Positions 12,346-50,482 of a stretch of 64,000 nt of DNA are shown piece by piece. The stretch's first letter is position 1; every line of letters begins with the position of its first letter. Under the pieces are notes generated by a model. The model saw nothing but the letters and a program-made list of their open reading frames with translations. It had not been told where the DNA came from and searched no databases. Origin of the DNA: Niastella vici (GTDB lineage: Bacteria > Bacteroidota > Bacteroidia > Chitinophagales > Chitinophagaceae); assembly GCF_002077945.1 (NCBI RefSeq), contig NZ_LVYD01000050.1, positions 62,001-126,000 on the forward strand, given 5' to 3'. The position numbers were made by a program, and so were the translations under genes.

Positions 12346-13473
12346 GTATTTAAATACCACAACAGCGTTCTTTTGTTCAGTAGAGGTAATACGAACTTCA
12401 TACTGCTGTTTGCCCGCTTTCACCACCATGAGGGAGGTATTGGGTGGAATTTCACCCAGGTTCTCGGCCACCATCACCAACTCGTGATAGTTTGCCGTTT
12501 CATCGAGGTTTATTTTGAGGGTGAGGGCTTTTTCGGTAAGCCGTTTTTTCGACATCACCAGCTTTTTATCGAGGTATACCGAAATGGTGTCATTATCAAC
12601 GGTACCATTGTCGTAAATATCGATCTCAATTTCCGTAGCTGCGGTAATAATGGTTTTTACAAGTTCATTATCGCGACTGGCCAGCTGTTTGGGCGTGGGA
12701 ATATTAGTAAACGGCGGCGCCTTGATCACTTCTTTAGCGGTATCAACAGGTATAATTTTTACGCTGGGTTTTGTTTCAGGCGTTTTGACAACCGTATTCT
12801 TTTCGGTTGTTTTTGGTGTAGCGGTCACCGTTTTTTTGGTAACGGGGGTGGTTGTTTTAGGGGTGGTCTTAGGCGTTGTTTTTACAATCGCTTTTTGTTT
12901 TTGGGCAGTATCCGGTTGTATCGGTTTTATTTTAGTGACCTCGGGCTTTTTCTCTGCCTGTTTTTCCTTCTCCCGCTTTACCAGGAATGGTTCTTCGTAA
13001 AAGTCGGAAGTGGTCACCTTACGCAAGAAAACAGTTCCTTTACCACAATTGGTTGAATCCCGGGTATTGAAACTGCTGTATGTGCCCTCCAGAAATTCTT
13101 CATCATTTTCTTTGGTATATTTCAAATTCAGCGTCATTACGCAGGCATCGCTGCCACCGGCCATGCGCACTTCCACAATTTTCAGTTCTTCGAGCCGTAC
13201 CAGTTTGGTATCGGGGTTCACTGTACCCATACAGGTAGCCTTACCATAAAACACGGTGCTGAGATAGGAGTAGGTAACACCCTTGAAGTTTTTACTATTC
13301 TGATCTACCTGTACCTCAAATTTATAACGGTCGTCGCCACCAAGCAGGTCCAGCATACGGCCGTTTGCGCCAACCGGGGTCCTTTTGAAACTTCCACGCC
13401 AGATGCCGGTGAGGTCCTGCGCCTGTACACATAACCCGAGGCCCAAAAACAGAAATAGTAAAGCTGATTTCAT
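12337..13473 (-). CDS. Secreted hypothetical protein with Lys/Thr/Pro-rich linker
   Basis: A 378-residue protein with a signal peptide (1-18, CVQAQ). The N-terminal domain (19-155) begins LTGIWRGSF and has several Cys (about residues 81, 110 and 142). A long low-complexity linker rich in Lys, Thr and Pro (about 165-255) contains repeated TPKTT words. A C-terminal beta domain (about 275-378) is shared with the protein encoded at 11290. The linker looks like a flexible spacer that lets the two domains reach apart, for instance across peptidoglycan. The pair arose by tandem duplication, and the shorter copy has only a short linker. Function unknown; signal peptide and start are clear. Confidence 0.75.
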   Translation of the reverse strand: MKSALLFLFLGLGLCVQAQDLTGIWRGSFKRTPVGANGRMLDLLGGDDRYKFEVQVDQNSKNFKGVTYSYLSTVFYGKATCMGTVNPDTKLVRLEELKIVEVRMAGGSDACVMTLNLKYTKENDEEFLEGTYSSFNTRDSTNCGKGTVFLRKVTTSDFYEEPFLVKREKEKQAEKKPEVTKIKPIQPDTAQKQKAIVKTTPKTTPKTTTPVTKKTVTATPKTTEKNTVVKTPETKPSVKIIPVDTAKEVIKAPPFTNIPTPKQLASRDNELVKTIITAATEIEIDIYDNGTVDNDTISVYLDKKLVMSKKRLTEKALTLKINLDETANYHELVMVAENLGEIPPNTSLMVVKAGKQQYEVRITSTEQKNAVVVFKYQK

Positions 13474-13786
13474 CAGAAAATAATAATTTTTCTTTGGCCC
13501 GATGGAACTTACCCTGCCAGAATTTTCATTTAAGTTGAATGCATAATGAAAATATTGTCAGGCACGTTTCATCTTATTAAAAAAACTGATTTTACCTGGT
13601 TCCATCGTGTTCATCCCCCCGGAACCAACTGCATCAACCGGCAATTTACTTAATAATTAGTTTTTTACGACACATATCGTAAATGGTGGTCTGCAAATTG
13701 TTCGTTAAATTTGCCGTTCTTCCGGCAATACAGGGGTTTTGAAAGCACCCTTTGTATAACCGGCCACAAAAAAAGGTAGTGACAAA
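13474..13786. promoter_or_regulatory. Divergent spacer and thrS leader
   Basis: This 313-bp spacer lies between divergent genes. TAAATTTG at 13706-13713 fits the Bacteroidota -7 consensus TAnnTTTG, but no clear TTTG -33 box is seen at the right distance. A short hairpin (13711-13728; TTGCCG/CGGCAA around a 6-nt loop) overlaps its end. If the box is used, the thrS leader is about 65 nt. No T-box-like or tRNA-like structure was recognised. Confidence 0.35.
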
Positions 13787-24213: not shown

Positions 24214-24262
24214 AAAACGCTCCATACGAAACGCAGGTTTGCGTTTTGTATGGAGCGTTTTT
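24214..24262 (+). terminator. Long hairpin terminator after lgt
   Basis: A stem of about 22 bp (AAAACGCTCCATAC with GTATGGAGCGTTTT, continued by GAAACGCA/TGCGTTTT) has a very small loop, then a T run. It may serve both strands, since the next gene is convergent. Confidence 0.85.
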
Positions 24263-40542: not shown

Positions 40543-41934
40543 TTACCAGGTATCAGTTCTGAACGGGCAAACCGGTAATCCTTCCTTCCCGAATAAATTA
40601 CCGATACCGGTATTCGTGAACCCATACCGTACGGCAACCGGTTCCTTCACCAGTTTGCTGCTAACCACCAGTTGGTTATTCTCGATCTTTGCATCGGCCG
40701 GGTAAAATTGCTGATCACTGCCGGCGATATACACTTCAGTAATTTTTTTATCTTTTGCCATAATACCGGTGGGGGCATTATCGAAAGTGATATAAGCCTT
40801 GTCCTTCTTCACTTCCATGCTTTTGTACAGCGGGCTTTTATAAACAATACCTTCCTTTTTATAGGTCTCGTGCAGGGCCCAGTTGGCCAGCCGCGCACCC
40901 ACATCATGTTTATTGGTAGGGTGAATATTATTGGTATCGGCTACCAGGTCGGTAATAACCACCATGCCTGTTTGCGGATGGCTCATGGTTTTTGTTTGCT
41001 GTTCGCGCAACAAAGCGCCGATCTGCGGTGAACCATATTTATAAGGCGCTATCTGTACATAGTAAAAAGGAAATTCCCTGTTCCAGGCCTTGCGCCAGCT
41101 GTCGATCATGGTAGTGAATAATTTGCCATAGGTGGCAGCAGTTTCGGTATTGCTTTCGCCCTGGTACCAAATGGAACCGGCAATGGCATAATTGGTGACA
41201 GGCGCAATCATGGCATTGTAGGTATAACCGGGCGTTATGGGCCAGCGTGAATCTGGTTTTTGTTTAACGGCAGCCGCTTTTAATTCCCCATCATTATTTA
41301 CCAGCGCTTCGGGCGTCCATACTTCGGCCGGTGTACCGCCCCAGCTGGCATTGATGAGGCCAATAGGCACGTTGAGGTCCTGGTTCAGTTTTTTGCCAAA
41401 GAAATACCCAACGGCGCTGAAGAATTTCAGGGCATTGGAATCGCACACCGCCCATTTGGCGGCGCAATCATCCTGCGGATAAACGGCTGTGGTTTTGGGA
41501 ATATGGAAGAACCGGATATTCTTATTATAGCAGGTCGGCAGTTCAGCGGCGATATCGGGGAGTTTATTATAATAATTCCACTCCATGTTCGACTGGCCCG
41601 AGCAAACCCACACTTCGCCGATCAGTACATTTTCGAGTACAATGGGCGTTGCCGTATTGCTGCCCCAGATGGTAATGGTAAAAGGCCCGCCGGCGGCCGG
41701 GGTTTGAATGGTATACAGCCAGTTGGCGTCGCGGGTACCTTTCAGGGAATCGGTCTTGTTATTCCAGGAAGTGGTGATGGCGATCTTTTCGCCGGGACTG
41801 CACCAGCCCCACAATTTTACGTTTGACTGTTGCTGCAGCACCATATTGCTGCTGATAACAGCGGGCAGGCGAATGGCAGCATGGGAGGCAATGACAAGCG
41901 AACATAAGAAAAGGAACGATGACCATTTTTTCAT
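40543..41934 (-). CDS. Sialate O-acetylesterase (SGNH hydrolase)
   Basis: A 463-residue secreted esterase; signal peptide 1-19 (IASHAA). The ATG at 41934 is chosen because the signal peptide starts there; the frame extends 20 codons into an inverted repeat. SGNH motifs are present: GQSNMEW (nucleophile Ser), GGTPAEVW, WYQGESN and NNIHPTNK with the catalytic His. Enzymes of this family remove acetyl groups from sialic acids or, in environmental Bacteroidota, from plant glycans. A perfect 20-bp inverted repeat lies upstream. Confidence 0.9.
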   Translation of the reverse strand: MKKWSSFLFLCSLVIASHAAIRLPAVISSNMVLQQQSNVKLWGWCSPGEKIAITTSWNNKTDSLKGTRDANWLYTIQTPAAGGPFTITIWGSNTATPIVLENVLIGEVWVCSGQSNMEWNYYNKLPDIAAELPTCYNKNIRFFHIPKTTAVYPQDDCAAKWAVCDSNALKFFSAVGYFFGKKLNQDLNVPIGLINASWGGTPAEVWTPEALVNNDGELKAAAVKQKPDSRWPITPGYTYNAMIAPVTNYAIAGSIWYQGESNTETAATYGKLFTTMIDSWRKAWNREFPFYYVQIAPYKYGSPQIGALLREQQTKTMSHPQTGMVVITDLVADTNNIHPTNKHDVGARLANWALHETYKKEGIVYKSPLYKSMEVKKDKAYITFDNAPTGIMAKDKKITEVYIAGSDQQFYPADAKIENNQLVVSSKLVKEPVAVRYGFTNTGIGNLFGKEGLPVCPFRTDTW

Positions 41935-41975
41935 CTGTAATTTTTTATTTTTTTTAATATGGCCAGATGGAACCC

Positions 41976-42028
41976 GGCATGATAAAATTTTCATTTCCGC
42001 AGGTTTATAATGAAAATTTTATCATGCC
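41976..42028. repeat. Perfect 20-bp inverted repeat upstream of the esterase gene
   Basis: The arm at 41976-41995 (GGCATGATAAAATTTTCATT) is exactly complementary to 42009-42028, with a 13-bp loop. Each arm is itself nearly palindromic (ATGA...TCAT). It ends 41 bp before the esterase ATG, so it is in the likely leader or operator region. There is no T run, so it is not a terminator for that gene. Confidence 0.85.
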
Positions 42029-42154
42029 TCGTTTCATATCTCTATAGCAATTTGCGTTTAAAAGTATTTCCGTAACAGAAACCAACAAAAATTATATTTT
42101 ATAATGGAATGATTGGTAGAAGCATTTTGAGGGGTAAAGGTTGTTTAGTTTAAT

Positions 42155-50401: not shown

Positions 50402-50482
50402 CTGAAGTAGGAGGTATGAGGTAAGAAGTAGGAAAATACAATTCAGGATTTCTTACCTCATACTTCTTACTTCCTACTTCAG
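50402..50482. repeat. GAAGTAG heptad inverted repeat, copy 5
   Basis: The left arm (50402-50435) reads CTGAAGTAG, GAGGTAT, GAGGTAA, GAAGTAG. The right arm (50449-50482) read on the opposite strand is CTGAAGTAG, GAAGTAA, GAAGTAT, GAGGTAA. The same set of four heptads occurs in shuffled order, with a 13-bp loop. It starts 25 bp after the glgA stop. Confidence 0.75.

Follow-up and report, generated by a model that had tools for sequence, protein, structure and literature searches.

A putative guide-bearing mobile element of about 100 bp ahead of ATGAA in Niastella vici and other Bacteroidota

Introduction

HEARO/IscB elements are long, encode an HNH protein and insert at ATGA or GTGA. For IS200/IS605 elements, the accessible part of PMC6006769 describes a guide 5′ of the hairpin foot; at the left end it contacts the flanking target and at the right end the terminal bases. 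The same part describes the Y1 proteins of subclass 1.2 in Bacteroidetes as generally without IS-type ends, and states that the Bacteroidetes genes of subclass 2.6 have atypical flanking structures, copies of which occur at other places in the genome. CGTC-tagged palindromic repeats are also dispersed, Bacteroidetes included, and the accessible text of PMC3733652 gives no dedicated transposase for them.

A window of 64,000 nucleotides of Niastella vici (contig NZ_LVYD01000050.1, positions 62,001 to 126,000), the whole stretch of DNA analysed, was found to hold two copies of an element of about 100 bp that comes closest to IS200/IS605-derived miniature elements and REP sequences. It appears to work like them. 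It was not filed as a member, because the defining feature tested for each kind, a Y1 association and a GT[AG]G foot respectively, was absent. Our literature searches, with most subscription papers beyond their reach, returned no published description of the element.

Results and Discussion

Hairpin upstream of the sialate O-acetylesterase gene

Positions 41976-41995 (GGCATGATAAAATTTTCATT) are exactly complementary to 42009-42028 across a 13-nt loop (41996-42008), which confirms the exact 20-bp inverted repeat reported in the original prediction. Its statement that the repeat lies far beyond chance also held. The hairpin heads the list of ten inverted repeats found in the window, where it is extended to 38 nt at 82%. 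The near-palindrome ATGA...TCAT noted within each arm is present. Behind the stem, in gene sense, come GGGTTCCATCTGG and an A-rich linker; a T run is absent, as had been remarked, and an intrinsic terminator was rejected on this ground. Two further long inverted repeats in the window, at 24214-24261 (22 nt at 95%) and 50404-50473 (24 nt at 92%), were not matched by covariance model R1, described below.

The hairpin lies ahead of a sialate O-acetylesterase gene of the SASA family (40543-41934, minus strand; PF03629, Pfam 5e-20). The start given by the ORF caller, the ATG at 41994, falls inside the hairpin, and the suggestion that the repeat explains a false longer start was borne out. The true start is most likely 41934, because the orthologues open with ATGAAAAAATGG right behind a homologous non-coding flank: in the congeners G003, G004 and G009 the upstream flank leads straight into ATGAAAAAATGG. 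Lying between the start codon and a flank common with element-free relatives, the element is probably part of the mRNA leader, and the earlier idea of a leader hairpin was retained in this form.

Structure of the element

The boundaries of the window element were set by an alignment of 19 copies and by empty sites in relatives. It measures 103 bp on the minus strand (41935-42037), its outermost bases being the A of the left ATG at 42037 and the G of CAG at 41935, and is matched by R1 at 41926-42043 with 110.6 bits. Read in gene sense, it begins with the left end ATGAAAC (42031-42037), assigned from sequence, alignment and pairing as the 5′ strand of a helix P1. The 20-bp 5′ arm (42009-42028), the loop and the 20-bp 3′ arm (41976-41995) follow, then the guide GTTCCATCTG (41964-41973) and an A/T-rich linker with a conserved GGCC beside the guide (41938-41963). 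The right end CAG (41935-41937) adjoins the target ATGAA (41930-41934) with the start codon inside it; alignment and empty sites place both within 41930-41937. The second window copy, also on the minus strand (13474-13572; R1 match 13465-13578, 99.9 bits; sequence as L027/L053), stands before another gene starting at 13473.

The same gene-sense order was seen in the 19 aligned copies, with variations: ATGAAAC (or T), stem-loop, GTTCCATCTGG, A/T-rich linker, CAG and ATGAA. Across copies both ends are conserved, as are the guide and the pairing, and the arm sequence varies; in L026, L065 and L067 the stem is replaced by unrelated short G+C-rich palindromes. In some copies (L020, L062, L063, L393) a further small hairpin, of the CCTGTCCCGGCTTGTCGGGAG type, separates the stem from the guide and seems to be another dispersed palindrome that inserted there.

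The genome-wide search proposed in the original prediction yielded many copies. With 161 bp as query, 23 places were found, some being opposite-strand shadows. The right-end pattern with up to two mismatches gave 24 matches against one for the reversed control, although some of the 24 do not look like copies. Model R1 returned 27 rows at E≤0.001 in the Niastella vici genome, corresponding to 26 distinct sites and one opposite-strand shadow.

Pairing of the guide with both ends

The guide GTTCCATCTG, at the 3′ foot of the hairpin, is complementary to CAGATGAAAC with one mismatch. Its GTTCCAT pairs with the left-end ATGAAAC (helix P1) and its CATCTG with CAGATG at the right junction (helix P3), the CAT being common to both helices. 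Both P1 and P3 covary. Pairing holds in 94.7% of the cells of the 19-copy alignment, and both partners have changed in 14 of the 28 pairs; none of 500 shuffles reached this level, and pairing drops sharply once the partners are slid. In 66 of the 79 parsed Niastella-group copies (28 of 107 were unparsed and left out), every base of the guide triplet is complementary to the right-end triplet; 10,000 shuffles averaged 44 such copies and never exceeded 53. Among 21 copies with guides other than CTG, 12 are complementary (CCG/CGG, GTG/CAC, GCG/CGC, CAG/CTG, GAG/CTC). Copies within one genome are not independent of one another. The P1 mismatch, an A.C according to the alignment, is unpaired in 17 of the 19 copies.

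Between P1 and the stem, a tandem 5′-GA/GA mismatch occurs in 38 of 70 phylum-wide rows and its mirror TC form in none; at the same positions 16 rows are Watson-Crick at both, one has tandem AG and 15 have other combinations. When the esterase leader of the window copy was folded as RNA, the result (z = -4.6) was equalled by none of 200 shuffles, and the predicted structure contains the stem, P1 with its mismatch and, in place of P3, a pairing just behind the start codon. P3 is present in the predicted folds of two phylum copies. Of the three leaders folded, L263 hardly beats its shuffles (z -1.5, 10/200).

Target and start codons

Directly behind the right end most copies have ATGAA, and variants such as ACGAA, ATAAA or ATGAC occur. 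The copies stand for the most part at start codons and in the orientation of the gene. ATGAA is found on both sides of the element, and the left one may be the element's own; the sixth base differs between left and right in L015, L075 and L095, so that a duplication comprises at most ATGAA.

In the phylum set an open frame of at least 50 codons lies behind 58 of 78 distinct copies with enough flank and behind the other 20 there is none. By a crude ORF-based gene call, about 33% of the available ATGAA in the same loci, those outside predicted genes or at starts, are starts (209/636). Copies at starts are thus enriched (binomial p ~8e-14, for copies that are not independent). Of the 107 Niastella-group copies, 89 stand before such a frame and 18 do not. 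The excess at start codons may reflect either choice at insertion or survival afterwards. The genes behind the copies, named from their sequences and not by family search, are unrelated: aspartate kinase, isocitrate-dehydrogenase type, GAPDH, RND pump, AMP nucleosidase and lipoproteins.

Empty, filled and shared sites

Seven element-bearing genes were compared with 51 upstream regions from nine congeners. A site was counted as empty when R1 had no match there and the 40 nt left of the element were homologous to the 40 nt before the ATG, with none of 200 shuffles scoring as well. This applied to 21 of the 51 regions, at five genes: RND pump (6), aspartate kinase (7), esterase (3, in G003, G004 and G009), AMP nucleosidase (4) and GAPDH (1). 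Precise loss could also produce an empty site. The other 30 regions comprise three with strong matches (L136, L142, L149), nine with weak matches (L131, L163 and seven at isocitrate dehydrogenase), one that was too short (L153) and 17 that pass neither test clearly. The strong matches are in place at aspartate kinase in G005, at the RND pump in G002 and at GMD in G001. For GMD no empty allele was found among these regions, since the left flanks are not homologous. Upstream of the esterase, G005 has a decayed copy (26.8 bits) and G006, by eye, a copy with another hairpin.

At the isocitrate dehydrogenase site, weak R1 matches (23-41 bits, E 0.0001-0.08) occur at the right place and on the right strand in seven of eight congeners, so that these seven share an old and diverged copy; an empty site in all eight was accordingly rejected. 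In the eighth congener, G002 (L157), the region satisfies both criteria of emptiness but by eye seems decayed, and it was left out of the count of empty sites. In Niastella vici itself (L023/L058, G000:C1:15200-15314; compare L155-L162) linker and left flank have about 19 nt in common, an indication of a tandem or renewed unit, and visual inspection suggests that the unit modelled there is a second one next to the remnant of the old copy.

Orthologous element sites common to two to four congeners form 14 sets, so that copies persist through speciation. Head-to-tail arrays of two and three non-identical units were found in the McBI.38 genome (L437, L438) and arrays of two units in L229 and L296. 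In the McBI.38 arrays the ATGAAA that ends one unit is the beginning of the next.

A probable mobile element with an internal guide

Taken together, these data make it likely that the hairpin belongs to a non-autonomous mobile element of about 100 bp which carries a guide and is dispersed in Bacteroidota. The guide would set the points of cutting and joining by pairing both to the ends of its own element and to the target. An exchange between CAG|ATGAAAC and NNN|ATGAA would place the unit before ATGAA and leave the gene intact. Once inserted, the unit would form an mRNA leader in which P1 could hide the duplicated upstream ATG and P3 could pair with the start codon. An element landing exactly between leader and start codon can swap leaders across a phylum with the genes unbroken, and it misleads start-codon annotation, as at the esterase. 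The rule that links guide and target (GTTCCATCTG and ATGAA) makes the mechanism directly testable.

Comparison with known elements

Read along the antisense strand, the parts are, in order, target TTCAT, proposed cut, CTG, linker, guide CAGATGGAAC, hairpin, GTTTCAT, proposed cut. Here CAGATGGAAC stands ahead of the hairpin, and at each end it pairs with TTTCAT with one G.T wobble. As in the IS200/IS605 family, to the extent of the description available, a guide 5′ of the hairpin foot thus matches target and element end, and the target is short and fixed. In contrast, the element has one hairpin and not two, its guide pairing extends up to 7-10 nt compared with 4, no transposase gene lies in or beside it, and the tandem G.A favours the opposite strand.

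With REP/RAYT systems the element shares that it is short, palindromic, extragenic, non-autonomous and present in high copy. It differs in its length of about 100 bp, its fixed target and the absence of a GT[AG]G tetranucleotide at the 5′ foot, where the alignments show CG/GA or CGTCC. No RAYT association was found: the YIHNNP-type loci L357, L364 and L366, a few cases among the 31 Y1 loci, are without model hit. The Niastella-group copies resemble CGTC-tagged repeats in holding CGTC after ATGAAA, but those have stems of 8-9 bp, loops of 4-5 nt and CCA tails, and the accessible part of PMC3733652 describes no ATGAA target, guide or linker for them. The likeness to HEARO/IscB elements lies in integration at ATGA or GTGA; a unit of about 100 bp differs from long elements with an HNH gene.

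A DDE-type MITE was rejected, as the ends ATGAAAC... and ...CAG are not inverted and the inverted repeat is internal. A known Rfam RNA family was likewise rejected, since only tRNAs exceeded the gathering score in the 30 loci scanned.

Candidate transposases and the mobile strand

By analogy with IS200/IS605, the element may be moved in trans, as single-stranded DNA, by a Y1 HUH transposase; we put this forward tentatively, at less than an even chance. The only Y1 gene found in Niastella vici (L099 1474-1902; G000:C46:19892-20227) encodes 142 aa with domain PF01797. It lies between two genes that we take to be aromatic-pathway enzymes, and no element copy was found beside it. No transposase gene was associated with the element, either within or adjoining it. 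The motifs DHMH and YIEKQEEHH of the L099 protein fit the signature Y---Q--HH of subclass 1.2, as given in PMC6006769. The subclass 1.2 proteins of Bacteroidetes are candidates for the mover.

In 31 Y1 loci (99 kb) the model gave five hits, in four loci, two of them weak. In 296 phylum genomes, searched for both at the same settings and assumed to be the same draw, a Y1 hit occurs in 13 of 14 element-positive and in 190 of 282 element-negative genomes, which is suggestive and not decisive. Chitinophaga cymbidii, with 31 element matches, and G502, with seven, gave no hit in the Y1 search.

Tandem G.A pairs are stable, and their presence would mark the mRNA-sense strand as the folded one. The A.C mismatch of P1, which becomes a G.T wobble on the other strand, speaks against this, and sheared G.A pairs form in single-stranded DNA too. 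In the modelled helices G.U and A.C cells number 22 and 17, giving no strand verdict, and when the two strands of the window copy are folded as DNA they come out about equal. A more specific version of the mobile-element reading has a single internal 10-nt guide that recognises the joined ends and ATGAA and acts on the mRNA-sense strand, with a mover other than a known transposase; landing at start codons would be built in and the duplicated start hidden in the element's own helix. We consider this version rather improbable.

Alternative explanations

The element could instead be a dispersed cis-regulatory leader. The mRNA would toggle between P1, with the upstream ATG hidden and the real start free, and P3, with the start sequestered, and would so set translation, mobility being a mere means of spread. 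Placement at start codons above the share of available sites fits such a leader, as do the covariation of P3, which spans the start codon, and the tandem G.A on the mRNA strand. A test for selection at orthologous sites, from which one set (31% identity) and two paralogues had been excluded beforehand, was mixed: the pair is kept in 32 of 38 two-sided changes, counted over species pairs that are not independent, but one-sided changes break it in 117 of 156 cells, about the level estimated for drift. With unrelated genes behind the copies, no 50-codon frame behind 20 of the 78 phylum and 18 of the 107 Niastella-group copies, and no Rfam family, a leader of this kind is unlikely. A regulatory effect of the element on its gene is possible.

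Spread at the RNA level, by insertion into transcripts or copying by a reverse transcriptase, would make the folded mRNA-sense strand the mobile one, and the sense orientation and start codons would then be natural targets. The strand-specific tandem G.A (38 of 70 rows, mirror image 0), the enrichment at starts and the incomplete match between Y1 genes and element are in its favour. Since sheared G.A pairs also form in single-stranded DNA and 20 of 78 copies lie away from 50-codon frames, we regard this route as quite improbable.

The pair of operator sites of one regulon, or regulator binding site, put forward in the original prediction had symmetric arms and many copies ahead of genes to recommend it, but is very improbable given that the arms are replaced by unrelated palindromes in three loci, that the genes have no common function and in 18 of 107 cases no 50-codon frame follows, and that relatives have empty sites.

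Distribution

The element was traced beyond Niastella vici with two covariance models and a sequence pattern; the counts of R1 matches in congeners and family and of R2 matches per genome and phylum may include opposite-strand shadows. R1 matched in each of nine congeners, with 1 to 27 rows and as many as 26 sites in one of them, and among 39 genomes searched, matches beyond the genus occur in G016, G018 and G031. In the family and phylum surveys 12-13 candidates were scored per genome. With strict filters, R1 matches at E≤1e-6 were present in 22 of 294 genomes of the family sample, six being of the genus Niastella.

Model R2 was built from 53 rows, 17 of 70 parsed rows having been dropped beforehand and 11 of 81 matches being without a left end by rule. 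With up to 150 candidates scored per genome, it gave at least 150 matches in one Bacteroidota genome, 138 in a second and 120 in a third, Labilibacter sediminis, 31-85 in eight others and 21 in Niastella vici. At E≤1e-5 with strict filters, 14 of 296 phylum genomes were positive.

A pattern scan of a species collection, in which guide and right end are fixed and P3 is thus beyond its test, found at least 116 stretches. Among the 80 loci listed, 79 have Bacteroidota titles and one is an Ignavibacterium bin; Chitinophaga, Algoriphagus, Labilibacter, Marinifilum, Prolixibacteraceae, Winogradskyella, Aquimarina and others are among the Bacteroidota matches listed. The guide and right-end pattern is also carried by the IMG/VR contigs L439, L440 and L441, and viruses may be carriers of the element between hosts. 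Three contigs of Bacteroidales UBA6680 (L239, L261, L270) stop 8 bases behind the element and a fourth (L233) stops 63 bases behind it, as expected if assemblies break at near-identical copies.
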